46,221 bases of DNA, from assembly GCA_022785265.1 (NCBI GenBank), contig JALFQD010000409.1, forward strand, positions 1 through 46,221. Direction: 5' to 3'. This stretch comes from Clostridium sp. GTDB lineage: Bacteria > Bacillota > Clostridia > Clostridiales > Clostridiaceae. This document shows, piece after piece, positions 18,540 to 45,282 of the stretch. A program made the translations under genes and the position numbers. The notes beneath the pieces were generated by a model. It worked only from the letters and a program-made list of their open reading frames with translations. It searched no databases and was not told the DNA's origin. Each line of letters starts with the position of its first letter. Position 1 is the first letter of the stretch.

Positions 18540-19486
18540 TCTATTAAGGAAATATTATTTAATGTACTCTTTTTTTATAAACTAAATTCTTTTCTTAAAT
18601 TAATATTTGATTTTCTTTTAGTAATTTATTTTTATTTAACATGGCTAAATTAAATATAATAAAAATAAATTAAATATTAATGCTGGTTTTGTAATACTTC
18701 ATTTTACTATAAGAAAAAACATTGTTTTGTTTTCTTTTCTTAACCTCCTTTCTGATGTGGCGCAGCGTAACAAGTGCCACAATACATACAAAGCTTGTCT
18801 ATAGACTTGCACACAATTAAATAACTTAGCTTTATTTAATTAACATTCAATCATAATAAATAATATAAACGTTGATGCAGGAGGAGTGCGACTCCGGATG
18901 CAGCAACAATCTAAGGGGAAGACTTTTGTTAAAACAAGTAGGGGGAAAGAGAGCATAGTGGTTATAGTTATAAGTATTGCGTTTACCGCAATAATAAAGC
19001 TATTCTCTCTTCTGCGGTTCTAACATTAACTAATGCAGCTACATACTGCTTAATATAGTCTGCTCTGTCTAATATAAATTAAGAGAACTTACTTTCAATA
19101 TCTTTCTCTCTTGGTTTTACTCCAACAGACAAAATGAAAAATGAAAATTATTTTTTAATGATTATTCATTTTCTGCTTCCTTTCTTTGAGCGAACAAAGT
19201 TGCGCGAGCAGCCTTTTAGCTAGACATACTGGACATTAATAATATAACGTTGTGTTGTAGGCGCGGCAGTACATGCTCAATGCCGCCACGGCAACACTCT
19301 CCTTAGTAGATACTGCATTATTACTGTAGCACAGCTTAGAAACTTATTAAGCTGTGCTATTATTATATAAAGAGGTTGATACAATTGTACTGTTCAGCGG
19401 TGCGTGTGCGGTTGACACGCACCGAGCTTATGTCAAGGACTTATTGTGGCAATTTTTTAACAAACTTTGAATGACTTTGTTAAAAT
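18540..19486 (+). ncRNA. Candidate large structured noncoding RNA (~0.9 kb)
   Basis: Transcript from the 18503 promoter, with no coding ORF but many strong nested stems: GTTG/CAAC with inner GGAGT-GCG-ACTCC (18871-18907); GAGAG..ATAG/CTAT..CTCTC (18949-19009) enclosing ATTGCG/CGCAAT; GTGTTG/CAACAC (19252-19297) enclosing GCGGCA/TGCCGC; an 11-bp stem at 19328-19358; and a 10-bp stem at 19398-19424. The first 200 nt are AT-rich and look less structured. Size, lack of coding and phage setting resemble the ornate large RNAs (ROOL, GOLLD), but I cannot match a named family by eye. The 3' end is the first copy of the repeated three-hairpin element. Confidence 0.65.
19328..19486 (+). repeat. Structured intergenic element, copy 1
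   Basis: Hairpin A: AGCACAGCTTA/TAAGCTGTGCT (19328-19358). Hairpin B: CGGTGCGTGT-gcggttg-ACACGCACCG (19398-19424) followed by GTCAA. Hairpin C: TTTTAACAAA/TTTGTTAAAA (about 19455-19486). Same A-B-C order as the other copies; the stem sequences differ but the pairing is kept. Confidence 0.7.
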
Positions 19487-19710
19487 ATTATCAATCCCAA
19501 AACTGGACAAACATTGTTAATTTTTTCACAAGTCCAAAATGCAACAAAAGGTTTATACTTTGTTAAAAAATTAACTTATTTTTTCTATTTCCTATTGGAA
19601 AACTGGTTTCCGCCGCGGAAACTAAAATTGTTAATAAACTGCCAATTTTGCTAAAGCAGCACCCCATTTAAGTATACCACAACAGCGCAAACTTGTCAAT
19701 ACCTTTGTGT

Positions 19711-19861
19711 AAAAAAAAGTTGCTAAAATTAGCAACTTTTTTGTTCTTTGGAGGCGACTTACTGATTCCTTGTGACACGGTTCGCTTGGCTTTACTGCCC
19801 TTTTGGGGACTTACTACCTGAACCCCTGCACGGTGTCTGCTGACCGCGCTCCCCTTGGAAC
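19711..19861 (-). ncRNA. ~150-nt small RNA with own promoter and terminator
   Basis: From the minus promoter at 19868-19896 transcription runs about 150 nt to a perfect intrinsic terminator. No credible ORF. Stems: GCGCGGT/ACCGTGC, GGGG(...)CCCC, GGC(AGTAAA)GCC, then the terminator. The unpaired motif AGTAAGTC occurs twice (before CCCC and before GCC). I do not recognise it as 6S, tmRNA, SRP RNA or a tracrRNA. Likely a phage regulatory sRNA made early, since its promoter matches the early-gene promoters. Confidence 0.7.
19712..19736 (-). terminator. Terminator of the small RNA
   Basis: Minus-strand GTTGCTAA-TTT-TAGCAAC followed by eight T. The plus strand also shows AGCAACTTTTTT, so it can stop the opposite direction as well. 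Confidence 0.9.
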
Positions 19862-19867
19862 AATTAT

Positions 19868-19896
19868 AGTATAACACAAGGGGCGGAAAATGTCAA
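19868..19896 (-). promoter_or_regulatory. Small RNA promoter (early type)
   Basis: TTGACA (19896-19891), 17 nt, TATACT (19873-19868), then ATAATTGTTCCAAG. The -10 to +15 block is the same as that of the plus-strand promoters at 19942, 20903, 21747 and 25882. Confidence 0.85.
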
Positions 19897-19941
19897 CACT
19901 TTTTTTTGAAAAAGTTTTTTTTATTTTTTTTGAAAAAAGTA

Positions 19942-19970
19942 TTGACAAGAATACAGTCTTGGTGTATACT
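19942..19970 (+). promoter_or_regulatory. Early promoter facing right, mirror of the sRNA promoter
   Basis: TTGACA, 17 nt, TATACT, then ATAATTGTTCC-AAG-GGAACA, a small 5' hairpin. With the minus promoter at 19868 it forms a large inverted repeat (arms about 27 nt at 19857-19885 and 19957-19982). Confidence 0.85.
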
Positions 19971-20014
19971 ATAATTGTTCCAAGGGAACAGAAAAGAAAA
20001 GAGAGGTTAGAACA

Positions 20015-20275
20015 ATGAAAAAGGAAATGAACAAGGCTTACATGGTAATGGTACAGAATGAGGTCGTTATGGTGACAATGGACAAGATAAAGGCCGAAAA
20101 CTTTTATTTCGCCCTCAAAAGACAATTTGAACTTCGAAGTGCTTATGAACTTGTCAACGAAACTACAACGTTTAATGATTACTTTGGAAGTACGCTCTAT
20201 GATAAAACTGCAGTACTTAAAGCCATAAATGATGAAATTGTCAAGATACGAATTAGGGTAATGATAATGGATTAA
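20015..20275 (+). CDS. Unknown small early protein (86 aa)
   Basis: First protein gene of the rightward early region. ATG 20015 after AGAGAGGTTAGAACA; TAA lies at the base of the following terminator. Sequence starts MKKEMNKAYMVMVQNEVVMV and contains KAENFYFALKRQFELRSAYE; alpha/beta, moderately basic. No domain recognised. Early host-takeover function is possible given the strong promoter. Confidence 0.65.
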   Translation: MKKEMNKAYMVMVQNEVVMVTMDKIKAENFYFALKRQFELRSAYELVNETTTFNDYFGSTLYDKTAVLKAINDEIVKIRIRVMIMD

Positions 20276-20295
20276 AGGGCGCAAGCCCTTTTCTT
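20274..20295 (+). terminator. Terminator overlapping the stop codon
   Basis: AAAGGGC-GCAA-GCCCTTTTCTTTTT; the TAA of the upstream gene is in the foot of the stem and the loop is a GNRA tetraloop. Two more small hairpins with TTAAAG arms follow at 20308-20346. Confidence 0.8.
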
Positions 20296-20394
20296 TTTAG
20301 AACGGCACTTTAACGCATTAAAGTGATAATGCTTTAATGTGTTAAAGCAGCAAACCTTGTTAAAAACTCGACAATCTTTTTATAAAATTCCCTA

Positions 20395-20423
20395 TTGACA
20401 AATTTGCAAATAAGCATTATAAT
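20395..20423 (+). promoter_or_regulatory. Early promoter
   Basis: TTGACA, 17 nt, TATAAT; start codon 30 nt downstream. Confidence 0.85.
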
Positions 20424-20453
20424 ATATACATAAAGAAAAGGGAGGAAAAAACA

Positions 20454-20603
20454 ATGTTTGATGATGATTATATCGTAACCAAAAAATTCAAGGTTCGCCC
20501 ACGTTCAATCGCATGGTTCGCAATACGCGCAATGCAGGCTGTATGCGGCGCAAGTTGTTTATATCTCTTATATATTCTATTGGCGGCAGTTTGTGGGGGA
20601 TAA
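20454..20603 (+). CDS. Small membrane protein (49 aa)
   Basis: ATG 20454 with GGGAGGAAAAAACA upstream; TAA 20601. The N-terminus is charged (MFDDDYIVTKKFKVRPRSI) and the C-terminal half is one hydrophobic helix with Cys residues (VCGASCLYLLYILLAAVCGG). Probably an inner-membrane peptide. The stop codon lies in the loop of hairpin GGGGGAT/ATCCCCC. Too short for standard gene finding, but promoter, ribosome site and terminator-like hairpin frame it cleanly. Confidence 0.7.
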   Translation: MFDDDYIVTKKFKVRPRSIAWFAIRAMQAVCGASCLYLLYILLAAVCGG

Positions 20604-20638
20604 AAAATCCCCCTTGACAAATAAAAGGAAGGCAAACA

Positions 20639-20842
20639 ATGATGAAGTTTAATCGCAAATTACGCAATAAAATAAAGCTTATATTTAGGCATTGTATATT
20701 GCTAAATGGAAAACTAGACTATACAACAAATTGGAATAGAATAGCAGTAAATAGTCTTATTAAAGTCTATGAACGAATCGATAAAAAAACCGCTAAAATT
20801 CTCCGCAAAGAAGTAAAGCGAATAACAAAGACAGTTTCCTAA
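20639..20842 (+). CDS. Small basic protein (67 aa)
   Basis: Starts MMKFNRKLRNKIKLIFRH; ribosome site GGAAGG. Very basic and helical (RIDKKTAKILRKEVKRITK), so nucleic-acid binding is plausible. The region before it has TTGACA but no -10, so it probably shares the 20395 transcript past a leaky hairpin. No family recognised. Confidence 0.6.
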   Translation: MMKFNRKLRNKIKLIFRHCILLNGKLDYTTNWNRIAVNSLIKVYERIDKKTAKILRKEVKRITKTVS

Positions 20843-20854
20843 TCCTCTCTTTTT

Positions 20855-20892
20855 GGGGGAATACTTAAAAAAAGTATTCCTCCATTTTTTAT
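20855..20892 (+). terminator. Intrinsic terminator
   Basis: GGGGGAATACTT / AAGTATTCCTCC with an A-rich loop, then ATTTTTT. Confidence 0.85.
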
Positions 20893-20902
20893 AATTTTCC
20901 TA

Positions 20903-20931
20903 TTGACAAATAATGTGGGTTATGCTATACT
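20903..20931 (+). promoter_or_regulatory. Early promoter with TGTTCC leader
   Basis: TTGACA, 17 nt, TATACT, followed by ATAATTGTTCCAAGAG. Member of the shared promoter-leader group. Confidence 0.85.
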
Positions 20932-20971
20932 ATAATTGTTCCAAGAGAGAACAGAAAGAGAGGAAAAAAAG

Positions 20972-21169
20972 ATGAAATATTATGAATTGCAGGTAAGTTA
21001 TGAAATGTTTGGTGAAGATGAAGTCAAAAAAGATACTCTCTTTGTTCCGCAATCGGACTCAGCAAAGAAAATTGCGCAACAAATGATAGATAAGTTCACC
21101 AATGTTATACAGGTAGAAGTCATCAATGGCGCAACTGGAGAGCTTGTCTATTACAACGCTAAAGATTAA
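20972..21169 (+). CDS. Unknown small early protein (65 aa)
   Basis: ATG 20972 with AGAGAGGAAAAAAAG upstream; MKYYELQVSYEMFGEDEVKK. An in-frame upstream TTG at 20936 is rejected because it lies in the promoter leader. Beta-alpha composition with FTNVIQVEVINGATGELVYY. It resembles small phage proteins of the MKYYE type in general form, but no function is known to me. The TAA is inside the following terminator stem. Confidence 0.65.
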   Translation: MKYYELQVSYEMFGEDEVKKDTLFVPQSDSAKKIAQQMIDKFTNVIQVEVINGATGELVYYNAKD

Positions 21170-21198
21170 TAAGCGGGGGAAAATTCCCCGCTTATTAA
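21166..21198 (+). terminator. Terminator containing the stop codon
   Basis: TTAATAAGCGGGG / CCCCGCTTATTAA, a 13-bp perfect stem that includes the TAA of the upstream gene. Confidence 0.8.
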
Positions 21199-21205
21199 AA
21201 AGCTT

Positions 21206-21234
21206 TTGACAATTTTTATAAAAAAAGGTATAAT
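21206..21234 (+). promoter_or_regulatory. Early promoter
   Basis: TTGACA, 17 nt, TATAAT, A-rich spacer. Confidence 0.85.
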
Positions 21235-21267
21235 AAAAATATAAAAAAAAAAGAAAAGGTGATTTTA

Positions 21268-21738
21268 ATGATATTGTTTTCTATTTGTACAATAATCAAT
21301 GTAATTCTTTCAACAGTAAAAAGTCTTATTACCATTAAAGGCTCTAAGCTTGCGGCGGCTTTGATAAATGCTTTAACCTATGGTTTTTATACTTATGTTA
21401 TTCTTTTAACAAGCGATGCCGCGCTCAGCATTGAGGGAAAAATGGCTGTCACCGCGGCGGCAAACTTTATAGGTGTCTATCTTGTTAAGCTATTGGAGGA
21501 AAAGGCGCGTAAAGATATGCTTTGGAAAATTGAAAGCACCATAAAACATGATGAAAAAATATTGTATGCTTTGCGTGACCAATTGGAATTAGCGGATATT
21601 CCTTTTAATTGGATAGATATAAATAAGTATTTTATCGTCAACTGTTTTTGCGCAACTCAAGAACAGAGCGCAAAAGCCAAAACAATACTTGATGCAGTTG
21701 GCGCAAAGTATTTTGTTTCAGAAACAAAAACTCTTTGA
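21268..21738 (+). CDS. Membrane protein, DUF5698/UPF0316-like N-terminus (156 aa)
   Basis: Starts MILFSICTIINVILSTVKSL at ATG 21268 (AAAGGTGAT upstream; the GTG at 21259 is inside the ribosome site). Three hydrophobic segments: about 2-22, 30-50, 58-75, then a soluble C-terminal domain (HDEKILYALRDQLELADIPF...QEQSAKAKTILDAVGAKYFV) that looks like a ferredoxin-like regulatory fold. The TM part recalls UPF0316/DUF5698 proteins by eye only. It is an early gene with its own promoter, so possibly a membrane-acting host-takeover or exclusion factor. Confidence 0.6.
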   Translation: MILFSICTIINVILSTVKSLITIKGSKLAAALINALTYGFYTYVILLTSDAALSIEGKMAVTAAANFIGVYLVKLLEEKARKDMLWKIESTIKHDEKILYALRDQLELADIPFNWIDINKYFIVNCFCATQEQSAKAKTILDAVGAKYFVSETKTL

Positions 21739-21746
21739 AAAAGGTA

Positions 21747-21775
21747 TTGACATTTTAGCCTAAGTATAGTATACT
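21747..21775 (+). promoter_or_regulatory. Early promoter with TGTTCC leader
   Basis: TTGACA, 17 nt, TATACT, then ATAATTGTTCCAAGAGGGAAC forming a small hairpin. Confidence 0.85.
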
Positions 21776-21815
21776 ATAATTGTTCCAAGAGGGAACAGAA
21801 AGAGAGGAAAAAAAG

Positions 21816-22022
21816 ATGAAGAAATACTTTGAAACACCTACACAAGTTATGTTTTGGCAGGACGCGGAAATAATGCGCGAAAATAATGTAGACTATTTTG
21901 TGGGCATAGCTTATCACGATGAAATAATTTGCGCGTGTTGCGGCGGCATAGTAGAAATTAGCGAAGTTGAAAACATTGAAACTTTTCCTTGGGTTGATAT
22001 TACCGATGCAATTCTTAGTTAA
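21816..22022 (+). CDS. Unknown small early protein with CxCC motif (68 aa)
   Basis: ATG 21816 behind AGAGAGGAAAAAAAG, the same leader as the 20972 gene. Starts MKKYFETPTQVMFWQDAEIM; contains EIICACCGGIVEI, a Cys cluster that may hold metal. No family recognised. Confidence 0.65.
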   Translation: MKKYFETPTQVMFWQDAEIMRENNVDYFVGIAYHDEIICACCGGIVEISEVENIETFPWVDITDAILS

Positions 22023-22029
22023 TAAGAGC

Positions 22030-22055
22030 AAAAGGGCTTAGAAATAAGCCCTTTT
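22030..22055 (+). terminator. Terminator overlapping the next promoter
   Basis: AAAAGGGCTTA-GAAA-TAAGCCCTTTT; its last two T are the first bases of the TTGACA of the next promoter. Confidence 0.8.
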
Positions 22056-22082
22056 GACAATTTTTATAAAAAAAAGTATAAT
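22054..22082 (+). promoter_or_regulatory. Promoter of structured element copy 2
   Basis: TTGACA, 17 nt, TATAAT. The transcript has no ORF of note before 22489 (only an 8-codon MMKKTKA frame), so it mainly expresses hairpin RNA. Confidence 0.8.
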
Positions 22083-22142
22083 AAAAATATAAGAAAAAAA
22101 TGATGAAGAAAACTAAAGCTTGAAAAATAAAAACAAAAATTG

Positions 22143-22391
22143 AATTAAAAAACTGTAAATAATACAGTTTTTTAATTATGTAAAAACCCCTTGACTTTTT
22201 CGGCGGCCTGTGCGCGGTTGGCACAGGCCGAGCTTTGTGTCAAGCATTTTTTGGTGAAATTTCTGATAATTTTTTATCATTTGTGATAAAAAATTATCAA
22301 TCCTGAAACCCCAATTGTTAAAAAATTATCGTAGTATTTTTAACAATTGTATAATTATACATAGTGTATTATCGCGGCATAAATAATACAC
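22143..22391 (+). repeat. Structured intergenic element, copy 2 (candidate ncRNA)
   Basis: Hairpin A AATTAAAAAACTGTA/TACAGTTTTTTAATT (22143-22177); TTGAC 22191; hairpin B CGGCCTGTGC-gcggttg-GCACAGGCCG (22204-22230); GTCAA 22239; hairpin C GATAATTTTTTATCA/TGATAAAAAATTATC (22265-22299). Two further perfect hairpins follow: CAATTGTTAAAAA/TTTTTAACAATTG (22312-22349) and GTGTATTAT/AATAATACAC (22363-22391). TTGAC and GTCAA can close hairpin B from outside. Confidence 0.75.
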
Positions 22392-22432
22392 TTTTTGAAT
22401 TGTGACAAAATTGTGAACACTACAAAAAGCTA

Positions 22433-22461
22433 TTGCAATCATTTTCCAAAAGTAGTAAAAT
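22433..22461 (+). promoter_or_regulatory. Promoter of the HAD gene (weaker)
   Basis: TTGCAA, 17 nt, TAAAAT; start codon 28 nt downstream. Confidence 0.6.
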
Positions 22462-22488
22462 ATAGGCATAGTTAAGAAAGGAAAACTA

Positions 22489-22950
22489 ATGCTTATGACT
22501 TTTTACTTTGACATGGATGGCACATTAGCGAATTTTTATGGTGTGCAAAATTGGCTTGAATATCTCAAAAATTTTGATACTACACCATACCGCATAGCTG
22601 AACCGCTTATAAATTTTTCTCTGTTGGCGCGGCGTATTCACCAACTACAACGCAAGGGATATAAAGTCGGAATAATTAGCTGGTTATCTAAAAGCGGGAC
22701 AGAAGATTATAACGCGGCTGTAACTACCATTAAAAAAACATGGCTGAAAAAACACTTGCCCTCTGTAGAATGGGATGAAATAACAATTATTCCCTATGGT
22801 ACACCAAAGCATAACCATGCTAATGATAAGTATGCTATACTTTTTGACGATGAAAAGCGCAATCGGGACGCATGGCAAAGCAAAACGCGCATGGCATTCG
22901 ATGAGTCCTGCATAATGGAAATTCTTGCCCATTTTGCAAAAAGTTGTTGA
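22489..22950 (+). CDS. HAD-superfamily 5'(3')-nucleotidase-like phosphatase (153 aa)
   Basis: Hydrolyses a phosphate ester, probably of a nucleotide. Motif I YFDMDGTLANF gives the nucleophile D8 and acid/base D10; motif II is probably IISW (62-65); motif IV is LFDDE with D120/D121 for Mg2+; a Lys (K114 in NDKYAILFDD) may serve as motif III. Size and the DMDGTLANF start match the small phage deoxyribonucleotidases that balance dNTP pools. ATG 22489 follows AAAGGAAAACTA; Met at 22495 is an alternative. Confidence 0.8.
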   Translation: MLMTFYFDMDGTLANFYGVQNWLEYLKNFDTTPYRIAEPLINFSLLARRIHQLQRKGYKVGIISWLSKSGTEDYNAAVTTIKKTWLKKHLPSVEWDEITIIPYGTPKHNHANDKYAILFDDEKRNRDAWQSKTRMAFDESCIMEILAHFAKSC

Positions 22951-22975
22951 CAAATAAAACGGCCTGTGGTAATAT
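22947..22975 (+). promoter_or_regulatory. Early promoter
   Basis: TTGACA overlapping the HAD gene stop (TGTTGA), 17 nt, TAATAT. The leader then forms a hairpin CGGGGAC/GTTCCCG before the ribosome site. Confidence 0.7.
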
Positions 22976-23020
22976 AATACTTGCGGGGACGCAATGTTCC
23001 CGTAGGAAGGAAGAAAAAAA

Positions 23021-23722
23021 ATGGGAAAGAAAATTGACCAACGCCGCCGTTATTATCTTGTATTGGATACCGAAACGGCTAACACCTATCGCGATGAAAA
23101 CAATAGGCTTGTAAGCAAAGACGCGCTTTTTTATGACTTAGGCGCGCAAGTTGTAGACAAAGCTGGCAATGTGTATGAGCGTTTTAGCTTTATCAATCGT
23201 GATATTTACTATGCTGAGCGCAGTCTTATGCAAAGTGCCTACTACGCTGATAAAATGAGCATGTATGACGCGCAAATTCTGGAAGGTAAGCGCACGGTCG
23301 CAAGCTTATATGAAATTCGCAAAGCTATTGCCGATGTCATTGCAGAGTATGGTATAACCGTAGTAATGGCGCACAATGCCAAATTTGATTATGACGCGCT
23401 TAATGCTACGCAAAGATATATAACGAAAAGCAAATATCGTTATTTCCTGCCTAAAGGTATAGAATGGTATGATACGGTTCGCATGGCGCGGTCAACTATT
23501 GCAAAGCAAAAAACCTATAAGCGTTTTTGTCAAGAAAATGGATACTTGACTAAAAATAATCAACCGCAATGTTCCGCGGAAGTGCTTTATAAGTACATTA
23601 GCGGCAATAATGACTTTGTGGAAAGTCATACTGGACTTGAAGATGTAGAGATAGAAACGCGCATTTTTGTCCATTGTATGCGCCAACACAAAAAAATGCG
23701 AAAAAAGTTGTTCAAGGATTAA
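23021..23722 (+). CDS. DnaQ-like 3'-5' exonuclease (233 aa)
   Basis: DEDDh-family exonuclease. Exo I YYLVLDTETAN supplies D16/E18; Exo II AHNAKFDYDAL supplies D123; Exo III ESHTGLEDVEIE supplies H203 and D208. Complete single-domain enzyme, like the epsilon proofreading subunit and many phage-encoded homologues; may proofread host polymerase or degrade host DNA or RNA. Ribosome site GGAAGGAAGAAAAAAA. Followed by a new promoter for the wHTH module. Confidence 0.9.
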   Translation: MGKKIDQRRRYYLVLDTETANTYRDENNRLVSKDALFYDLGAQVVDKAGNVYERFSFINRDIYYAERSLMQSAYYADKMSMYDAQILEGKRTVASLYEIRKAIADVIAEYGITVVMAHNAKFDYDALNATQRYITKSKYRYFLPKGIEWYDTVRMARSTIAKQKTYKRFCQENGYLTKNNQPQCSAEVLYKYISGNNDFVESHTGLEDVEIETRIFVHCMRQHKKMRKKLFKD

Positions 23723-23730
23723 AAAACCTA

Positions 23731-23760
23731 TTGACAAAACCGCGCACCGCATGTTATAAT
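23731..23760 (+). promoter_or_regulatory. Early promoter of wHTH module 1
   Basis: TTGACA, 18 nt, TATAAT. The leader forms CTGAAGGAC/GTTCTTCAG and then the stretch AAAACCAGAAAGAGAGTTGA, nearly the same as upstream of module 2. Confidence 0.75.
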
Positions 23761-23844
23761 AAATCATAAGCTGAAGGACAGGAAATGTTCTTCAGATAAA
23801 AATTGACAAGGACAGTCACAAAAACCAGAAAGAGAGTTGATACT

Positions 23845-24210
23845 ATGACTAAGAAGGAACTTTTCACCGCCCTGCTGAACCTGCCTACTGTACAGGCACG
23901 TCCCGACTTTGTAGCAGGACTGGAACATGAGATTGACCTGCTGAACCGCAAGAACACCACGCGCAAGCCCACGGCAAAGCAGGAAGAAGGCAATGAGATA
24001 ATTGCCCGCGTTCTTGAGATTTTGAGCGATGGCGAAGGCCGCACGGTAACAGAAATTCTCAAGAAGTTGGACATAGCAGATTTGAGCCATTCCCGTTTGA
24101 ACCAGCTTATTAAGAAGGCCAAAGACGCCGGAACGATTGAGCGCGAAGAAGTCAAGCGCAAGGCATACTTTTTCGCCGCAGGTGTTGAGCGCAAGCCGAT
24201 TGAACAGTAA
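23845..24210 (+). CDS. Winged-helix DNA-binding-like protein, module copy 1 (121 aa)
   Basis: Starts MTKKELFTALLNLPTVQARP. The N-terminal helical part contains EHEIDLLNRKN; a linker KPTAKQEE leads to a C-terminal winged helix (VTEILKKLDIADLSHSRLNQLIKKAKDAGTIEREEVKRKAYFF), with a recognition helix SHSRLNQLIKKA and wing VKRKAYF. Close paralogue of the 25997 gene and distant paralogue of the 41400 gene. Starts at 23845, since the upstream Met lies in the leader. Probably a transcription regulator or nucleoid-like protein. Codons are GC-rich, suggesting high expression. Confidence 0.75.
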   Translation: MTKKELFTALLNLPTVQARPDFVAGLEHEIDLLNRKNTTRKPTAKQEEGNEIIARVLEILSDGEGRTVTEILKKLDIADLSHSRLNQLIKKAKDAGTIEREEVKRKAYFFAAGVERKPIEQ

Positions 24211-24212
24211 GC

Positions 24213-24596
24213 ATGAACCAGCGCAAAGACATGGGGAGCGCAAGCTCCCCACAAATCCAGCAGATAATGAAAACGTTGCAAATATCAGAAGCAGAAGCAA
24301 AAGAGGTGTTAGACTATGATAGACGCATAGACGCAGGCGAAAAGTTGGGCGAATTGAGCGCGGAACAGAAAAAAGTTGCCAAGGAAATGACAATCACGCG
24401 CACAAAAACCAATTATAAATTCCAACAGCGCGAAAGAAAAGCTAACGCGGCAAAGCAAGAAATAATTGCGGCATTGGCGCAAACGCTGGAGAACAAAGGC
24501 GCGGAAAAGCTGGAAATCGCAAACGCGGAAAGAGAATTTTCTTTTCTATTGGATAACGTAAAATATAAAATAACTTTGAGTTGTCCGCGAAAATAA
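24213..24596 (+). CDS. Partner protein of the wHTH regulator, copy 1 (127 aa)
   Basis: Starts 2 nt after the wHTH stop (TAAGCATG), so translation is probably coupled. Segments: QQIMKTLQISEAEAKEVLDYD, TNYKFQQRERKANAAKQEI and a C-terminal beta part FSFLLDNVKYKITLSCPRK. Paralogue of the 26414 gene; the C-terminal part also resembles the 43850 gene. A hairpin GGGAGC-GCAA-GCTCCC lies in the first codons. Phage core protein of unknown function, always found here with the wHTH gene. Confidence 0.65.
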   Translation: MNQRKDMGSASSPQIQQIMKTLQISEAEAKEVLDYDRRIDAGEKLGELSAEQKKVAKEMTITRTKTNYKFQQRERKANAAKQEIIAALAQTLENKGAEKLEIANAEREFSFLLDNVKYKITLSCPRK

Positions 24597-24600
24597 TAAA

Positions 24601-24625
24601 AAACCTCCCAAAATGGGAGGTTTTT
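24601..24625 (+). terminator. Intrinsic terminator of module 1
   Basis: AAACCTCCCA-AAA-TGGGAGGTTTTTATT. Confidence 0.9.
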
Positions 24626-24868
24626 ATTACAAAAATTTAATTGTTACATGAATTGTTACGAATTCGTAATAATTTAAGTCGAAAACCTTGATAATAGTTC
24701 TTATTTTATTAAAAAAATTATGATTTTTTATAAAAATAGGGCGATTTTTAATAAAAAACTGATAATTTATACTGATTTTTTATAAAAAATCATGATTTTT
24801 TTAATAAAACTTTAAGAATTTATCGCAAAGTTTTATAATTGTTACAAAATTGTTACAAAAATTACCCC
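24626..24868. other. Very AT-rich non-coding stretch with repeated TTATAAAAA blocks
   Basis: About 240 nt with no ORF. Repeats of GATTTTTTATAAAAA and GATTTTTTTAATAAA (24720-24815), and paired TTGTTACA words at both ends (24643-24660 and 24838-24858). This is the most AT-rich gap in the early region; an origin or protein-binding array is possible. Confidence 0.4.
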
Positions 24869-24960
24869 TTGACATTCGACTCGCCGCTCTCAGATGAGAC
24901 CGGCGAGAATTTTGTCAATATAGAATCTCTGGTAATTTTTTAACGAAAAACTGTTAAAAT
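24869..24960 (+). repeat. Structured intergenic element, copy 3
   Basis: TTGAC (24869); hairpin B CTCGCCG...CGGCGAG (24880-24907) with an inner TCTC/GAGA; GTCAA (24914); hairpin C TTTTAAC-gaaaaact-GTTAAAA (24937-24959). No clear hairpin A or dedicated promoter. Confidence 0.65.
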
Positions 24961-24988
24961 TTAGACAAACATTTTTTTCCTAAAAGTA

Positions 24989-25017
24989 TTGACTTTATAG
25001 GGGCTATGATATATAAT
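24989..25017 (+). promoter_or_regulatory. Early promoter
   Basis: TTGACT, 17 nt, TATAAT. The leader contains GGAGG(AACTGAGAACC)CTCC, a hairpin that hides a decoy ribosome site ahead of the real one at 25066. Confidence 0.75.
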
Positions 25018-25079
25018 ACATAATGCAAGGAGGAACTGAGAACCCTCCAACAGATAAAAGGAAAAAGGAGATTAAAAAA

Positions 25080-25340
25080 ATGAAGGTTACGTTGCAGGTT
25101 TGTAAGATTGAGAATGTAGACATTGAAGTTCCCTATGCAATTATTGCGCCGCTGATGCTGGACAACTGTAAAGAAAATTGGGACAAGAGCGGAATCGCAA
25201 CCGAAGAAGATTATGAGCGCGTAAAGGATTACATCAAAAGAAATTACGGCTATGGCCTTAGCTGTGATATAGATAATGGCAATTATCAGTACGCGGAAAT
25301 TACCAGCGGCAATGAAACTATAACAATACTGGAGGGTTAA
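25080..25340 (+). CDS. Unknown protein upstream of AbrB-like gene (86 aa)
   Basis: MKVTLQVCKIENVDIEVPYA, with site AAAAAGGAGATTAAAAAA. Contains YERVKDYIKRNYGYGLSCDI; alpha/beta, acidic C-terminus. Its stop is 3 nt before the next ATG and its last codons (GGAGGG) form the ribosome site of the AbrB-like gene, so the two are co-translated. It could be an antagonist or partner of that regulator; no family recognised. Confidence 0.65.
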   Translation: MKVTLQVCKIENVDIEVPYAIIAPLMLDNCKENWDKSGIATEEDYERVKDYIKRNYGYGLSCDIDNGNYQYAEITSGNETITILEG

Positions 25341-25343
25341 AAA

Positions 25344-25655
25344 ATGTTTGAGCTAAGGCAAATTGATGAGCTGGGGCGCGTAGCAATACCCAAAGAAATA
25401 CGAGAACAAATAAACATTAAGACAGGCGCGCTCATGATAATAATAGATGAGGGAAAAAACTTTGTGACTTTTGCAAAGTATGACTCCAATGTTATTCCTC
25501 CACATGATACGACTCCAAGTGACATTCTTAGAGAAGCAATTTCAGAAATGGCAGTTTATGCCGCTGAATCTGAATACGAAACTGAATTTTATGAAATAAT
25601 GGATGAAGTTGCAAAGCTGATGAATGAGTGTGAGGAAATAGAAAACAGGGGTTGA
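25344..25655 (+). CDS. AbrB/SpoVT-type transition-state regulator (103 aa)
   Basis: The N-terminal SpoVT/AbrB swapped-hairpin DNA-binding domain is clear: RQIDELGRVAIPKEIREQIN followed by GALMIIIDEGKNFVTFAKY (residues 4-50). The acidic helical C-terminus (EISEMAVYAAESEYETEFYE) probably mediates dimers. Typical AbrB-like regulators are 80-100 aa, so complete. Located in the early region, it may control the early-to-late switch or host genes. Confidence 0.85.
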   Translation: MFELRQIDELGRVAIPKEIREQINIKTGALMIIIDEGKNFVTFAKYDSNVIPPHDTTPSDILREAISEMAVYAAESEYETEFYEIMDEVAKLMNECEEIENRG

Positions 25656-25680
25656 CAAGCTCAGCCCCTTATGATAAAAT
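25652..25680 (+). promoter_or_regulatory. Promoter of structured element copy 4
   Basis: TTGACA overlapping the AbrB gene stop (GGTTGA), 17 nt, TAAAAT. No ORF follows for 300 nt; the product is the hairpin RNA. Confidence 0.75.
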
Positions 25681-25694
25681 AATTAACATAGTTT

Positions 25695-25828
25695 TCAAGG
25701 GAAAGTTTGTAAAAAACTTTCCCTTGATCTTTTCAGCTCGCCGCTGTGGGTTGACAGCGGCGAGAATTTGTCAAGAGGAAATGTTTGTGAATTTTTTATC
25801 ATAAAAGCATGATAAAAAATTCACAAAC
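25695..25828 (+). repeat. Structured intergenic element, copy 4 (candidate ncRNA)
   Basis: Clearest copy. Hairpin A TCAAGGGAAAGTTT/AAACTTTCCCTTGA (25695-25727); hairpin B CTCGCCGCTG-tgggttga-CAGCGGCGAG (25737-25764); GTCAA (25770); hairpin C GTTTGTGAATTTTTTATCAT/ATGATAAAAAATTCACAAAC (25783-25828), a perfect 20-bp stem. A short GTTA/TAAC hairpin with T run follows at about 25848-25865. With its own promoter this looks like a ~170-nt RNA. Confidence 0.75.
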
Positions 25829-25881
25829 CAATTTTCCCGATTTGTTAAAAAAATAACTTTTTCATTTTTTGCAAAAAACTG

Positions 25882-25910
25882 TTGACACCAGCGGCGTTAT
25901 GGTGTATACT
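25882..25910 (+). promoter_or_regulatory. Early promoter of wHTH module 2
   Basis: TTGACA, 17 nt, TATACT, then ATAATTGTTCCAAG; the leader resembles that of module 1. Confidence 0.85.
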
Positions 25911-25996
25911 ATAATTGTTCCAAGGGGGACAGGAACCCCAAGGACATCACTACTAAGTGAAGGACACACTTAAAAACCAGAAAGTGAGTTGATACT

Positions 25997-26371
25997 ATGA
26001 CTAAGAAGGAAATGTTTACCGAACTGCTGACTCTGAGCGAAGTTGCCGCGCGTCCTGAACTCGTTGCAGGTATTGAACACGAAATCGAACTGCTGAGCCG
26101 TAAGAACTCAAGCACTCGCAAGCCTACCGCCCATCAGGAAGAAAACGAAATCCTTACTGAGCGCATTAAGGCTATCCTGTTCCACGCCTCCAATGACGGC
26201 ATGACCATCACCGAAGTTGTTAAGGCTCTCGATGATGATAACATCACCCATTCCCGTATAAACCAGCTTGTGAAAAAGCTGAAGGATGAGGGCATTGCGG
26301 TTCGTACTGAGGTTAAGCGTAAGGCATATTTTAAGCTGAGCGATGAAGCCAAGGAAGGTTTGGAAGGCTAA
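25997..26371 (+). CDS. Winged-helix DNA-binding-like protein, module copy 2 (124 aa)
   Basis: MTKKEMFTELLTLSEVAARPE at the start, same plan as the 23845 product: EHEIELLSRKNSS, linker, then TEVVKALDDDNITHSRINQLVKKLKDEGI and VRTEVKRKAYFKLS as wing. The upstream 25 nt around AAAACCAGAAAG.GAGTTGATACT are almost the same as in copy 1, so the duplication includes the leader. GC-rich codons. Stop codon TAA sits in the following hairpin. Confidence 0.75.
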   Translation: MTKKEMFTELLTLSEVAARPELVAGIEHEIELLSRKNSSTRKPTAHQEENEILTERIKAILFHASNDGMTITEVVKALDDDNITHSRINQLVKKLKDEGIAVRTEVKRKAYFKLSDEAKEGLEG

Positions 26372-26392
26372 GGGGCTTTGCCCCTTACCTTC
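26364..26392 (+). terminator. Hairpin containing the stop codon (partial terminator)
   Basis: GGCTAAGGGGC-TTT-GCCCCTTACC; the TAA of the wHTH gene is paired in the stem. No long T run, so it may attenuate rather than end transcription before the partner gene. Confidence 0.6.
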
Positions 26393-26413
26393 TAAAAGGA
26401 GGATTGAATAAAC

Positions 26414-26806
26414 TTGACCAAAGAGCAAGAAAAAGCGAAACTTGAAAACTTAATGAAAACGTTGGACATAAGCGAAGCCGAAGCCCGCGAGGTCATGGCC
26501 TATGATGAAGCAGTCGAACATGGCAAGCCCACGGAATATGACTTGACGCCAGACCAAAAGAAGGTTGCTAAAAAGATGACTAATTGCGACCATAAGAAAC
26601 AAACCGGAACAAATTACAAATTCCAAAAGCGCGAAAGAAAGAAGAATGGCGCAAAGGCTGATTTGATTGCGCTAATTGCGGAAATGTTGAACGCAAAGGT
26701 TGAAAATCTTCAAGTCACGAATGAAGAACGCCAAGTTATCTTTGACTATGAGGGCAATTCTTATGAAGTAAATCTAATCCAAAAGAGGAAGAAAAAAGAT
26801 GAATAA
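26414..26806 (+). CDS. Partner protein of the wHTH regulator, copy 2 (130 aa)
   Basis: Starts at TTG 26414 behind AAAGGAGGATTGAATAAAC. Aligns by eye with the 24213 product: LMKTLDISEAEAREVMAYDE, QKKVAKKMT, TNYKFQKRERKKNGAKADLI, and VIFDYEGNSYEVNL at the end. Its stop overlaps the ATG of the next gene by 8 nt. Unknown function; duplication of the whole two-gene module suggests the pair acts together. Confidence 0.65.
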   Translation: MTKEQEKAKLENLMKTLDISEAEAREVMAYDEAVEHGKPTEYDLTPDQKKVAKKMTNCDHKKQTGTNYKFQKRERKKNGAKADLIALIAEMLNAKVENLQVTNEERQVIFDYEGNSYEVNLIQKRKKKDE

Positions 26807-27152
26807 TGGAAAAGAATTTCTCTATGTGGGCTGTTACCTTGATGAAAATGACGACTTTATTCTCAAAGTTGGCACAACTAATAATCTTGAGCGGCGTAAA
26901 GCTGAACACACGCGCAACTATCGCAAGGCCGATAAACATAAGCTAATAGGCAAGCGTGAATTTGTTTATCTATGGCATTTGCCGCTAAGTAAATATAACA
27001 CATTGCGGTTTGAGGATAAAACGCGCCAGCGTTGGCAAGATGAAAAAATTGGGGAATATGTGCGGAATGATAGATTTGTATGCAAACAAATTCCCGAACG
27101 TGTAGAGGTTACAATCAGAAAAACCTATACAATTGAAATACCAGAATTTTAA
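26799..27152 (+). CDS. GIY-YIG / T5orf172-like nuclease domain protein (117 aa)
   Basis: FLYVGCYLDENDDFILKVGTT followed by NNLERRKAEHTRNYRK fits the GIY-YIG/MUG113-type fold: Y-V-G, then K-x-G-T-x-N-L-x-R-R-x-x-x-H. Single small domain, ending TYTIEIPEF. Such proteins are found as phage-encoded nucleases or homing-type enzymes. The canonical catalytic Glu is not clearly placed, so activity is uncertain. Start overlaps the preceding gene. Confidence 0.65.
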   Translation: MNNGKEFLYVGCYLDENDDFILKVGTTNNLERRKAEHTRNYRKADKHKLIGKREFVYLWHLPLSKYNTLRFEDKTRQRWQDEKIGEYVRNDRFVCKQIPERVEVTIRKTYTIEIPEF

Positions 27153-27160
27153 GAAAGGAA

Positions 27161-27190
27161 AACGCGCGGGGATAAAATTCCCCCGCGCGC
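27161..27190 (+). terminator. GC-rich hairpin between nuclease and zinc-ribbon genes
   Basis: GCGCGGGG-ATAAAATTC-CCCCGCGC, perfect 8-bp GC stem with no T run; probably an RNA-stability or attenuation element. Confidence 0.55.
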
Positions 27191-27202
27191 AAGGTTAAAA
27201 CT

Positions 27203-27385
27203 ATGGATTATATTTGTTGCCCCATTTGCGGCACTACAAATGAATATGAAGAAATTTCTGATTTGGATATAAGCTATTATAATAAAACAATAAGAAGGTA
27301 TTTTCTTTGCGGCGGCTGTGGCAGTCAATTTATGGCGGAATACACTTTAGAAAATGTTATTGCTTTGGAAGAACCAGAAAAGTAA
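27203..27385 (+). CDS. Small zinc-ribbon protein (60 aa)
   Basis: MDYICCPICGTTNEYEEISD with CPIC and later CGGCGSQF give a two-CxxC zinc ribbon, then an acidic tail. Likely a small nucleic-acid or RNA-polymerase-binding protein; no specific family. Ends before a strong terminator. Confidence 0.65.
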   Translation: MDYICCPICGTTNEYEEISDLDISYYNKTIRRYFLCGGCGSQFMAEYTLENVIALEEPEK

Positions 27386-27410
27386 ATAAGTTACAATGTA
27401 AAAATTTTTT

Positions 27411-27440
27411 GGCTGAAATAAAATTTCAGCCATTTTTTTT
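27411..27440 (+). terminator. Strong intrinsic terminator
   Basis: GGCTGAAAT-AAA-ATTTCAGCC followed by ATTTTTTTT. Confidence 0.92.
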
Positions 27441-27450
27441 CAAAAAAGAC

Positions 27451-27545
27451 TTGACATTTGAACTGGCCGCCACCGGATGCGGCGGCCAGAATTTTAAATC
27501 AATCAAAGTTTGTGAATTTTTTGTAACAAATGTTAAACAATTTTT
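27451..27545 (+). repeat. Structured intergenic element, copy 5
   Basis: Outer TTGA..ATTT (27451) can pair with AAAT..TCAA (27495-27506); hairpin B CTGGCCGCC/GGCGGCCAG (27463-27489); then GTTTGTGAATTTTTTG and a weaker hairpin C to 27545. It directly follows the terminator and has no clear promoter of its own. Confidence 0.65.
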
Positions 27546-27570
27546 GTCAAGATAAATTTTCCTGAAAGGC

Positions 27571-27599
27571 TTGACAGCTACGCTAAAAGGTGTTATAAT
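27571..27599 (+). promoter_or_regulatory. Early promoter
   Basis: TTGACA, 17 nt, TATAAT. Confidence 0.85.
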
Positions 27600-27634
27600 A
27601 ATGCCAGAAGTTAAGGAGAGAGGTAATTAAAACT

Positions 27635-27835
27635 ATGGAAAAGAGTATCACTCAGAGAATTGAAGAACTTGCAGACCAGATAAAGCAACTTTCTATTGAC
27701 ATGGCTCGCATGAAAGAGACTGCTGACCCAGATGACGTCAACGACATTCAAGAATTAAGTGATAACTTGTTTCATATCCAGTCTAAAATGCACTGTGAGT
27801 ATTATTCTTTAGCGCAAGATATTTGGGGAGATTAA
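27635..27835 (+). CDS. Small coiled-coil protein (66 aa)
   Basis: MEKSITQRIEELADQIKQLS with heptad-like hydrophobics through DVNDIQELSDNLFHIQSKM; acidic, helical, likely an oligomerising regulator or anti-factor. Own promoter and ribosome site (AAGGAGAGG). No family recognised. Confidence 0.65.
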   Translation: MEKSITQRIEELADQIKQLSIDMARMKETADPDDVNDIQELSDNLFHIQSKMHCEYYSLAQDIWGD

Positions 27836-27840
27836 AAAAA

Positions 27841-27874
27841 GGGGTTGACACAACAACCCCCTTCGTATTATAAT
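27841..27874 (+). promoter_or_regulatory. Fused terminator and promoter
   Basis: GGGGTTG-ACACA-ACAACCCC is a terminator-like hairpin whose loop and left arm contain the -35 TTGACA (27845); TATAAT follows at 27869 after 18 nt. Terminator and next promoter share bases. Confidence 0.7.
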
Positions 27875-27906
27875 AATACCAGAAGTTAAGGAAAGGGGTA
27901 ATTAAA

Positions 27907-27972
27907 ATGTTTACAAATATTATGTTCTATGTCATTTGGGCGGTTTTTGCTTTATACAGAAGAATTTTCTGA
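27907..27972 (+). CDS. 21-aa memb peptide ORF
   Basis: ATG 27907 with AAGGAAAGGGGTAATTAAA upstream encodes MFTNIMFYVIWAVFALYRRI plus F, one hydrophobic helix with a short basic end, then TGA. The gene has its own promoter at 27845 and the next promoter begins 18 nt later, so something is expressed here and this is the only frame. Single-helix phage peptides often modulate membrane proteins; function unknown. Confidence 0.55.
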   Translation: MFTNIMFYVIWAVFALYRRIF

Positions 27973-27989
27973 TTTAATGAAATAAGTGC

Positions 27990-28018
27990 TTGACAAATAA
28001 ACCCATTGGTGTTATAAT
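27990..28018 (+). promoter_or_regulatory. Early promoter of the PcfJ-like gene
   Basis: TTGACA, 17 nt, TATAAT. Confidence 0.87.
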
Positions 28019-28054
28019 AAACATATAAAGAAAAGGGATTGAGAGGTACTTAAA

Positions 28055-29119
28055 ATGAGCATGATAGAAAAGAACAAGAACCTGTTTGTGGTTACTTTGG
28101 AGAGCGGTAAGCAGACTTATTTTAACTTTACTGATGGCAATATCTATGGCGTAAGCGGCAAAGTTGTGCAAAACTTCAATGCTGAAGCTATGAGAATTTT
28201 GAAATCTAATCAGAACAGCAATTTTATTGCCATGTATTTCTATGAAAAAACGCTGTCCTATTCCCCTTATATTGATATTAAAGAATGGCCTGCTTCTTTG
28301 GTAGAAACCATTTATAGTTTGTATGCAAAACGTTACTCTGTCGATGTTCTGAGCAGAATTGCTGAGTTCTGTTATAAGAATAATTTTAAGCTGGATAAAA
28401 AAGGCGTTAAGATTTTAACAGAAGCTCTTTCCAACATGGAAAATGACAATGGTGAGTTGCCTTGGATAAATAGCCATCGGTTAGAAATTGAAATCGTTAA
28501 AATTTCCTATAGTAATTTGCCTGAGAAGATTATTTCTCTTATTTCACAGTCTACGCCTGAAATGAGAAAATATATTATAGAAGATGCTCAGAAAATTGCT
28601 TTTCGGTATGAACATGAAAATTGGGAATATTTGGATAAAGTGATACATTCTGCTAACACATACATTTGTCCTTATATATCCCGTTATATTCAGCTTTGTA
28701 ATTTACTTCACCATGAACGAACCTATAAAAATCTGTTTCAATCTATTTGCATGATGGAAAAAGAAAGAGATTTAATGGCTGATAAATTCTGTCTTGAATA
28801 CCAGAAAAAAGCACCTTTGTTTTTTGAAGATGAAAACTTTACAGTTCTCATTCCTACAACTGCAGACGAGTTCAAAGAAGAAGCCGATTACCAGCAAAAT
28901 TGTGTTTTTCGTCTGTACTATCCAAGAGTGAGGAATTGCGAAACCCATGTAGTTTTTATTCGCAAGAAGTCCGACATTAACACACCTTATATTACTTGCG
29001 AAGTTAATAATGCTGGGGAGATTATCCAGTACCTTACAAGGTTTAATGATAATGTGACAGATGATAATGCAAAAGCATTTGGGATTGCTTACCAAGAATA
29101 TTTGCATGAGCATTTTTAG
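28055..29119 (+). CDS. PcfJ-like protein ending in TAG (354 aa)
   Basis: MSMIEKNKNLFVVTLESGKQ. The long helical middle is followed at about residues 255-345 by the PcfJ-type block: FTVLIPTTADEFKEEADYQQ, then C, HVVFIRKKSD, TPYITCEVNNAGEIIQYLTR and N..V. PcfJ-like proteins occur on conjugative plasmids and phages; function unsettled. It ends with TAG at 29117-29119, the only plus-strand gene here that does. Readthrough would add about 22 residues across the terminator stem, so TAG is presumably a real stop when this gene is expressed. Confidence 0.75.
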   Translation: MSMIEKNKNLFVVTLESGKQTYFNFTDGNIYGVSGKVVQNFNAEAMRILKSNQNSNFIAMYFYEKTLSYSPYIDIKEWPASLVETIYSLYAKRYSVDVLSRIAEFCYKNNFKLDKKGVKILTEALSNMENDNGELPWINSHRLEIEIVKISYSNLPEKIISLISQSTPEMRKYIIEDAQKIAFRYEHENWEYLDKVIHSANTYICPYISRYIQLCNLLHHERTYKNLFQSICMMEKERDLMADKFCLEYQKKAPLFFEDENFTVLIPTTADEFKEEADYQQNCVFRLYYPRVRNCETHVVFIRKKSDINTPYITCEVNNAGEIIQYLTRFNDNVTDDNAKAFGIAYQEYLHEHF

Positions 29120-29128
29120 AAGCCAAAA

Positions 29129-29156
29129 AGAAGGGAAAAAGAATCCCTTCTTTTTA
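29129..29156 (+). terminator. Terminator after the PcfJ-like gene
   Basis: AAGAAGGGA-aaaaga-ATCCCTTCTTTTTAT. Confidence 0.85.
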
Positions 29157-29177
29157 TATATTTTTGCGCGAAAGGGC

Positions 29178-29206
29178 TTGACAAATAAATCTATTGGTGC
29201 TATAAT
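29178..29206 (+). promoter_or_regulatory. Early promoter
   Basis: TTGACA, 17 nt, TATAAT. Confidence 0.85.
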
Positions 29207-29247
29207 TAAGACAATCCAAGAGAAGAACAGTAAAGGAGATGATAACA

Positions 29248-29394
29248 ATGAATGAATTTTTTGGCTACTGCGGTTGGGACTTCGGCGGCGCATTGAACAA
29301 TAAATTTCAGAGGGGCGAACACGTACGCATTGGGCGTACCATATATCGTGTGATTTTTCGCATTGGCTCTTGGCATTGGTTAAAAAGAATTTGA
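29248..29394 (+). CDS. Small protein (48 aa), unknown
   Basis: ATG 29248 after AAAGGAGATGATAACA; TGA at 29392-29394. Starts MNEFFGYCGWDFGGALNNKF and ends in a basic aromatic segment (RIGRTIYRVIFRIGSWHWLK). Complete promoter, ribosome site and the next promoter right after it support a real gene. Possibly membrane-surface associated. No family recognised. Confidence 0.6.
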   Translation: MNEFFGYCGWDFGGALNNKFQRGEHVRIGRTIYRVIFRIGSWHWLKRI

Positions 29395-29403
29395 AAAAAG
29401 GAA

Positions 29404-29432
29404 TTGACATAACAGTCTCTTTGTGCTATAAT
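29404..29432 (+). promoter_or_regulatory. Early promoter
   Basis: TTGACA, 17 nt, TATAAT. Confidence 0.85.
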
Positions 29433-29459
29433 AATATCATCAAAAGGAGGTTTGATAAC

Positions 29460-29624
29460 ATGAAGGTAAATGAAAACAAACTTGATACTGTTTTGCAAAG
29501 CTTTGTAGAATCATTCAATGATTGCGCTTGTTGTCCTTTGATTTTTGATTGCGAAAGAGATAATGAAGGGATTGACTGTTACGAATGTGCAGAAGTGTTG
29601 AAAAAATGGCTCATGGGGGAGTAA
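29460..29624 (+). CDS. Small cysteine-rich protein (54 aa)
   Basis: ATG 29460 after AAAGGAGGTTTGATAAC. MKVNENKLDTVLQSFVESFN then CACC, C, and CYEC: six Cys in 24 residues, likely a metal knot. Ends KKWLMGE. Its stop TAA lies in the loop of GGGG-AGTAAT-CCCC followed by TATTTTTTTT. Unknown function. Confidence 0.65.
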   Translation: MKVNENKLDTVLQSFVESFNDCACCPLIFDCERDNEGIDCYECAEVLKKWLMGE

Positions 29625-29731
29625 TCCCCTATTTTTTTTAAGCTGGTCGCCCTTGGCCATGGCGACCAGAATTTCGGTTTAATTAGGGTTTGTAAATTTT
29701 TTTCTGCGCAAGTGCGGTTCAAGTACCCTAA
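29616..29731 (+). repeat. Terminator plus structured intergenic element, copy 6
   Basis: GGGG(AGTAAT)CCCC with T8 (29616-29639) serves as hairpin A/terminator; hairpin B CTGGTCGCC-cttggccat-GGCGACCAG (29643-29669), then GAATTT; hairpin C closed by TTAGGGT/ACCCTAA (29683-29731). The closing pair TTGAC/GTCAA of other copies is replaced by CCCTA/TAGGG. Confidence 0.65.
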
Positions 29732-29734
29732 CTA

Positions 29735-30120
29735 AAAAATCCTGTAATTAAGTCTCAGCGCCCCGGAGCCGGTTGTTAGGCTCCGGTATTTCCCCCGCAA
29801 CCCTCATATGGCGATTTTTTGCTCAATCCAGCGGCTCGCCCCATATGCACTTATTTTCCCAAAAAAGTTAAGGTTGTGCTTACGCACTCTCAACTTTTTT
29901 TCTTTTACCTTTGTTCCGCCCCGGCGCTACTCAATCACTTTATGCCCTTTTGATTTTTTATAAAAAATATGTTATAATATTAAAAAAAAGCAAAAATTCC
30001 AAAAGAAAAGAAAAAAATTTTCTTGTCAAATTGCGCGCTTCCAGATTAAGTCCGCCGCGGCACCAGTTTATTTTTATAAAAATATATTGTATAATAATAT
30101 CATAATCAAAAAGGGAAAAG
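29735..30120 (+). other. Non-coding stretch with stacked hairpins and two promoters
   Basis: Contains CCGGAGCC/GGCTCCGG (29761-29784), a hairpin with loop TTAC between GTGC and GCAC (29867-29890) followed by T8, and two A/T-type promoters (TATAAT at about 29970 and at 30090). No ORF with a ribosome site before 30125. Boundary between the early region and the next cassette. Confidence 0.5.
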
Positions 30121-45204: not shown

Positions 45205-45282
45205 GACCCGTTAGCTCAGTTTTGGTAGAGCACTTGACTTTTAATCAAGGTGTCCGGAGTTCGAATCTCCGACGGGTCACCA
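45205..45282 (+). tRNA. tRNA-Lys (UUU), CCA encoded
   Basis: Perfect acceptor GACCCGT/ACGGGTC, D arm TAGCTCAGTTTTGGTAGAGC, anticodon stem CTTGA/TCAAG with loop CTTTTAA (anticodon TTT, 45240-45242), T arm GGAGTTCGAATCTCC, discriminator A and CCA. Helps translate AAA-rich phage genes. It is not an amber suppressor. Confidence 0.97.

Follow-up and report, generated by a model that had tools for sequence, protein, structure and literature searches.

A repeated palindrome-and-box element of fixed geometry in the putative early region of a phage contig

Contig C329 (JALFQD010000409.1; 174,861 bp), part of a 3.19-Mb Clostridium sp. assembly of 409 contigs, carries a repeated palindrome whose letters change from copy to copy while its pairing and its distances to neighbouring boxes stay constant, and the question it raises is what reads it, and whether as DNA or as RNA. 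We analysed the first 46,221 bases of this contig (the window), in which an original prediction had described six intergenic copies of a three-hairpin structure (an AT hairpin A, a GC-rich hairpin B and a U-rich hairpin C). All six sites proved real, the family was larger than described, with seven copies in the window, and it is a true element family of precise geometry, apparently undescribed so far. As to its mechanism, which we infer, our tentative preference is for a cis-acting DNA element, repeated along a phage early region, that controls and delimits early units. A countable control element of fixed geometry would make the early regions of a clade of large gut and rumen phages recognisable from sequence alone.

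Copies and layout of the element

A strict search pattern consisting of the hairpin plus its tail, run on both strands of C329, matched exactly the six predicted sites in the whole contig. A weight-matrix scan of both strands, based on flanks and stem, returned seven copies with scores of 34.7-40.9 and a best other site of 16.4; in three block shuffles of C329 the best scores were 14.9 and 15.0 in two, and no site reached 10 in the other. The seven copies all lie on the plus strand, between 19.4 and 29.9 kb. Copy 1 (19392..19502, score 39.0) comprises a hairpin at 19398-19424, a T-tract from 19451 and TCCCAAAA at 19495-19502; copy 2 (22198..22308, score 37.9) has its hairpin at 22204-22230, a weak T-tract and TCCTGAAA at 22301-22308, and the region 22143-22310 gave a fold z of -8.47. 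Hairpins of 28 nt are present in copy 3 (24874..24985, score 38.3; hairpin 24880-24907 with one mismatch, TCCTAAAA 24978-24985) and copy 4 (25731..25842, score 37.6; hairpin 25737-25764, TCCCGATT 25835-25842), which are followed by copy 5 (27457..27567, score 40.9; hairpin 27463-27489, TCCTGAAA 27560-27567) and copy 6 (29637..29747, score 37.3; hairpin 29643-29669, TCCTGTAA 29740-29747). Copy 7 (29757..29864, score 34.7), overlooked earlier, has a 24-nt hairpin (29763-29786), CATATGGCGATTTTTTGC and, at 29857-29864, TCCCAAAA; it represents a sub-type with CATATG ahead of the T-tract, and in several relatives the cluster ends downstream with elements similar to it (L076 5508, L077 2028, G030 6783 and G002 133608). 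In all seven, a TCCYRAAA-like box, missed in the original prediction, begins 71 nt past the hairpin, exact in five and deviating in copies 4 and 6; the box alone shows no enrichment in the window (13 matches versus 11.7 expected), and it is its position that is striking. The copies are located between genes, as had been proposed, and mechanically called open reading frames (ORFs) overlap copy 5 (27307-27555, plus strand) and copy 2 (22015-22224, minus strand).

The common plan was derived from a catalogue of 117 distinct copies from 27 sources, with 114 different hairpins, from which only exact repeats were dropped and 66 of whose copies had served to train the matrices. The element spans about 111 bp, from -6 to +78 around the palindrome, with only weak conserved columns beyond these limits, and consists of a GC-rich palindrome, usually of 27 nt and typically with a 9-bp stem and a 9-nt loop, an A/T-tract that starts at +27 and, at +71 ± 1, a TCCYRAAA-like box, the linker having a fixed length and few conserved letters. 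A hairpin length of 27 was found in 80 of the 117 catalogued copies, and the same length peaked (33, versus 11 at 26 and 14 at 28) when GC-rich hairpins between 20 and 35 nt were listed without bias from seven genomes; C1, C6, G7, C21, G22 and G27 are conserved in 82-92% of the 80 catalogued 27-mers. Among 71 curated copies, TCC[CT] begins at +69..+72 in 67 (+69, n = 1; +70, n = 9; +71, n = 44; +72, n = 13), and the onset of the tract is marked by A in 84% at +27 and T in 82-84% at +30 and +31 (52 hairpins); neither feature had served to select the curated copies. These were hand-picked from 93 candidates (a named 17 were excluded, 6 of locus L087 were dropped as near-duplicates of G031 and copy 1 was added), the candidate scan having demanded pairing and a tail rich in T, with a slight preference for length 27. 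In the full catalogue the box lies at +70..+72 in 115 of 117 copies, the scan permitting only +69..+74. With respect to the three predicted hairpins, A turned out to be heterogeneous, terminator-like or missing, and C is reduced, across the family, to the conserved A/T-tract at about +27, the rest of that hairpin not being shared. A short motif, often palindromic, was also observed near the T-tract and upstream of -35 boxes in relatives, and varies by phage (TTGTGCAA, GGTACC, CTTTAAAG, CATATG, CCCGGGC).

Further copies exist in relatives, in line with the original prediction, which had proposed a search with a covariance model. Built from four copies, this model recovered the held-out copy 4 (E = 2.7e-8) and, weakly, the held-out copy 3 (E = 0.024), and matched at E ≤ 1 in 26 of 33 relative records (31 obtained through the protein encoded at 8171-9280 and two through that at 25997-26371), many of the matches being weak and several records showing grouping on one strand. 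In seven genomes the matrix scan gave rounded scores from 13 to 47 with a gap at 25-28; the 51 sites above the gap, 5 to 11 per genome, form a single cluster on a single strand in each genome, that of G030 spanning the circular junction, and a few sites scoring 20-24 are undecided. The record G008 was included except for its last 2.2 kb. Phage phAss-1 carries one element (score 32.5), and no element match was found in the 70.0-119.9 kb of Enterococcus phage H1 that were scanned. A degenerate pattern matched 98 viral and at least 116 bacterial-collection stretches, mostly by chance; among the 214 matches listed, 25 showed pairing at 8 or more of the 9 positions, and 11 were judged to be elements, two of them already known. 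A relative of protein 8171-9280 was present in 5 of the 9 records behind the new elements, one of which (L262) belongs to an assembly titled Lachnospiraceae bacterium. Over the copies, Rfam (4227 families) gave sub-threshold matches only and none at gathering score, our search of the open-access literature found no description of such an element, and a word search of the phAss-1 paper gave no mention of a hairpin, palindrome, promoter or repeat.

Pairing within the palindrome

The claim that pairing in stem B is kept despite sequence change held. Over 39 aligned hairpins, a subset of a listed 50, 95.2% of the cells were paired versus 64.5% after shuffling, with none of 500 shuffles as high, and sliding the partner column by 1-3 lowered pairing to 28.5-46.2%. 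Cells altered on both sides numbered 109 versus 40.4 in shuffled alignments, and 8 of the 9 pairs showed change on both sides versus 6.4 (7 of 500 shuffles as high). Since the aligned hairpins came from a scan based on pairing, a test blind to the stem matters: sites found by their flanks alone numbered 84, of which 56 had seven of seven Watson-Crick outer pairs, and the 588 outer pairs comprised 544 Watson-Crick, 17 G.T, 9 A.C and 18 other combinations, with each stem taken as the best of 40 placements, near-duplicates retained and no shuffled control. We also observed that, in the A-T pairs of the 39 aligned stems, the 5' arm contributes the T and the 3' arm the A in 39 cases versus 1 in the opposite orientation, a rule alike on both strands.

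Pairing beyond the stem fared differently. The proposed helix between TTGAC and GTCAA is not general: of the 117 copies, 24 have GTCAA at +6..+9, 34 have it at +31..+34, and in 13 TTGAC stands 5-9 nt upstream. In many cases GTCAA forms a -35 box. A pseudoknot between the loop and TCCYRAAA showed no excess over shuffling (p = 0.5), nor did a closing helix between TT.GG and TCCYRAAA across eight shifts (lowest p 0.31).

Promoter registers and the putative early region

Sigma-70-like promoters occupy preferred registers around the palindrome. A reverse promoter lies beside the palindrome, inside the element, in 38 of the 117 copies, with its -10 at +8/9 in 33; a forward promoter ends near the palindrome in 19, leaving a gap of 2-4 nt before it in 17; and the next forward -35 falls within +112 in 52, at +59..63 in 22 and at +80..84 in 14. 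The promoter classes vary between analyses because the search ranges vary. Where a reverse promoter (38/117) or a forward -35 at +59..63 (22/117) lies inside the element, the resulting RNA cannot carry all the conserved parts. A single structured RNA made of hairpins A, B and C is thus not supported, promoters lying inside the element in many copies and neither the loop nor the left foot covarying with TCCYRAAA. These preferred and often internal registers, together with the rigid spacing, favour a DNA-level site over one structured RNA.

In the window, plus-strand promoters precede copy 2 (22054..22082, 12/12 matches) and copy 4 (25652..25680, 11/12), in both cases with no intervening plus-strand ORF of at least 60 aa, which bears out the claim that these two copies have their own promoters; their position downstream is compatible with a leader or small RNA. 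Next-gene promoters, also on the plus strand, follow copy 3 (24989..25017) and copy 5 (27571..27599) with the -35 at +82, and copy 4 (25882..25910) with the -35 at +118. The promoter stretches 21203-21252 and 22051-22100 are 96% identical, and the second leads to no plus-strand ORF of at least 60 aa, which would fit the loss of a gene ahead of copy 2.

C329 starts and ends with the same 141 bases and is therefore a circular assembly, about 174.7 kb in length. Virion-type families (portal, virion structural protein) occur among the ORFs of the minus strand at 1-18.9 kb, and rightward small ORFs start at about 20 kb in the window. In viral contigs, protein 8171-9280 has 31 relatives, with 65-83% identity in the best segment, and it matched 20 named phage records, including phAss-1 (50%) and Enterococcus phages (42%); three relatives were found for protein 25997-26371 (41-42% identity) and none for protein 28055-29119. 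Ten of the larger proteins from the rest of C329 were scanned. They include a DNA polymerase, encoded by the longest open frame (1319 codons), two subunits of type II topoisomerase, an NAD-dependent ligase and a RecJ-like exonuclease; none of the ten matched an RNA polymerase family. Promoters with 11 or 12 matches are concentrated in and around the element cluster in 7/7 genomes, least sharply in G033; on the same strand of C329, 14 of them fall in the 20-30 kb bin versus at most 4 in every other bin. Given this concentration, we read the region as an early region.

The cis-acting control and border element that we tentatively favour would work through a protein complex reading the geometry of palindrome, tract and box. 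The palindrome might form an extruded DNA hairpin or, once transcribed, the 5' hairpin of a short RNA, and the complex would switch the flanking early promoters on or off, or insulate adjacent early units. A more elaborate proposal, to which we attach little probability, is a supercoil-sensing switch of early transcription, in which a pairing-constrained palindrome, placed where one host-type promoter or an opposed pair starts transcription and in exact register with the box 71 bp away, would be extruded or bound once the phage's type II topoisomerase alters supercoiling, so that the early units fall silent in succession. Published work on phage N4 describes early-promoter DNA hairpins in which non-conserved stem bases are free provided that the hairpin persists (PMC4496689). 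The location in an early region and a stem mixing conserved and free bases are shared with the present element, but N4-type hairpins are extruded under supercoiling and read by a virion RNA polymerase, whereas here a 9-bp stem and a 9-nt loop accompany host-type promoters. In phage SPbeta, MrpR binds the element SPBRE, which PMC10516654 describes as a repeated 15-bp repressor site; it is likewise repeated, intergenic and placed in promoter regions of a phage genome, but it is one conserved motif, in contrast to the variable palindrome with distant boxes at fixed spacing found here. With 114 different hairpins in 117 copies and only short boxes conserved, the present family does not belong with SPBRE.

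Several observations weigh against a DNA-level control element. None of the tested promoter kinds was found in 37 of the 117 copies, so promoter control is not general, and the promoter boxes were counted at 5/6 matches, with no shuffled control. The presence of AATTT at +1..+5 had in part been a selection criterion. Further pair types in the stem numbered 17 versus 18.4 after shuffling, hence no excess. Dimer binding to two half-sites would not require covariation, and the pairing therefore calls for a putative hairpin or cruciform. Finally, in a scan treating GT and AC alike (116 copies at a lower threshold, near-repeats removed), wobble mismatches GT:AC stood at 13:4 without and 0:4 with a reverse promoter (Fisher p = 0.012), a result of small numbers that includes some doubtful elements and was one among several tests. 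An earlier scan favouring GT had given 17:2 and 0:4, respectively, and the seven copies with both promoters have no GT or AC mismatch.

Other explanations and neighbouring features

According to this weak wobble-pair signal the hairpin may also be read as RNA, and an RNA function of hairpin B alone may exist. A noncoding-RNA family, in which short transcripts would carry the palindrome as their functional hairpin, most copies being read forward and those into which a reverse promoter fires being read in reverse, seems to us unlikely. Besides the wobble asymmetry, it draws on the reverse -10 at +8/9, which would place the RNA start near the first palindrome base, and on the promoters upstream of copies 2 and 4. 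However, G.T pairs are scarce (17 of 588), the box 71 nt away is absent from the reverse RNA, and the copies that lack a promoter of the tested kinds and the Rfam result also tell against it. The put antiterminator RNA of HK022 is a double-hairpin RNA directly downstream of an early promoter, and it lets transcription pass terminators further downstream. Hairpins within an early region are common to both, and copies 2 and 4 do lie behind a promoter with two hairpins, but most window copies are not directly behind a promoter, copies 5 and 6 following terminator-like stems. Neither put-type antitermination nor a processing site, both suggested originally, received specific support.

Quite unlikely, in our judgement, is a recombination joint at which early-region modules would be swapped at the palindrome, like gene cassettes at attC. 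Integron attC sites retain their structure while their sequence varies, are located between modules and have a tyrosine integrase as partner. A variable yet paired hairpin is what we found here as well, but the conserved boxes are different ones, and the recombinase families PF00589 and PF00239 were unmatched on C329 and in 7/7 relative records, in a search that left transposase families outside its range; the four PF00589 matches in the assembly are all on contigs other than C329. At three orthologous sites of G004 and G027, palindrome identity was 0.45-0.65, for a mean identity of all 27-mers of 0.49, compared with 0.83-0.95 for the right flank (60 nt) and 0.49-0.77 for the left flank, and in closer relatives the palindromes are identical or differ in the loop (0.85-1.00). 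The palindrome thus appears replaceable faster than the right flank, although this unequal divergence is known from one genome pair only. At a further site, where 167 nt of the right flank are 94% identical, the palindrome is absent from one record, and two similar palindromes occupy non-orthologous positions. Against this, homologous blocks run past both sides of the 12155/8312 site. In a flank BLAST for palindromes moving together with the left or the right module, many right-flank matches reflect a shared promoter consensus, not orthology.

If every early unit were closed by an intrinsic terminator or a backup insulator, a reading that we hold to be improbable, this would account for a GC-rich hairpin followed by AATTT, in gene-strand sense, behind gene ends. 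The T-run is short, though, and by the definition used (a stem, then at least 5 T in 8 bases) only copy 2 of the seven palindromes fits; terminator-like stems already stand ahead of copies 1, 4, 5 and 6, and the features at +27 and +71 and the promoters firing into the hairpin are left unexplained. Replication or single-strand initiation sites, very improbable in our view, would agree with a cumulative GC-skew minimum that lies within the cluster or at most about 7 kb away in 7/7 genomes, but skew also tracks gene direction, which turns nearby, there are 5-11 copies per genome, and the in-register promoters would require a separate reason.

Some features of the surroundings were also recorded. 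A two-gene module encoding a winged-helix-like protein and a second ORF is present twice, at 23803-24596 and 25997-26806, with copies 3 and 4 lying between. Upstream of copy 3 there is a long AT palindrome (24704-24809) whose 33-nt arms are 97% complementary, and genes for tRNA-Lys and tRNA-Gly are found in the window at 45205-45282 and 45606-45679.

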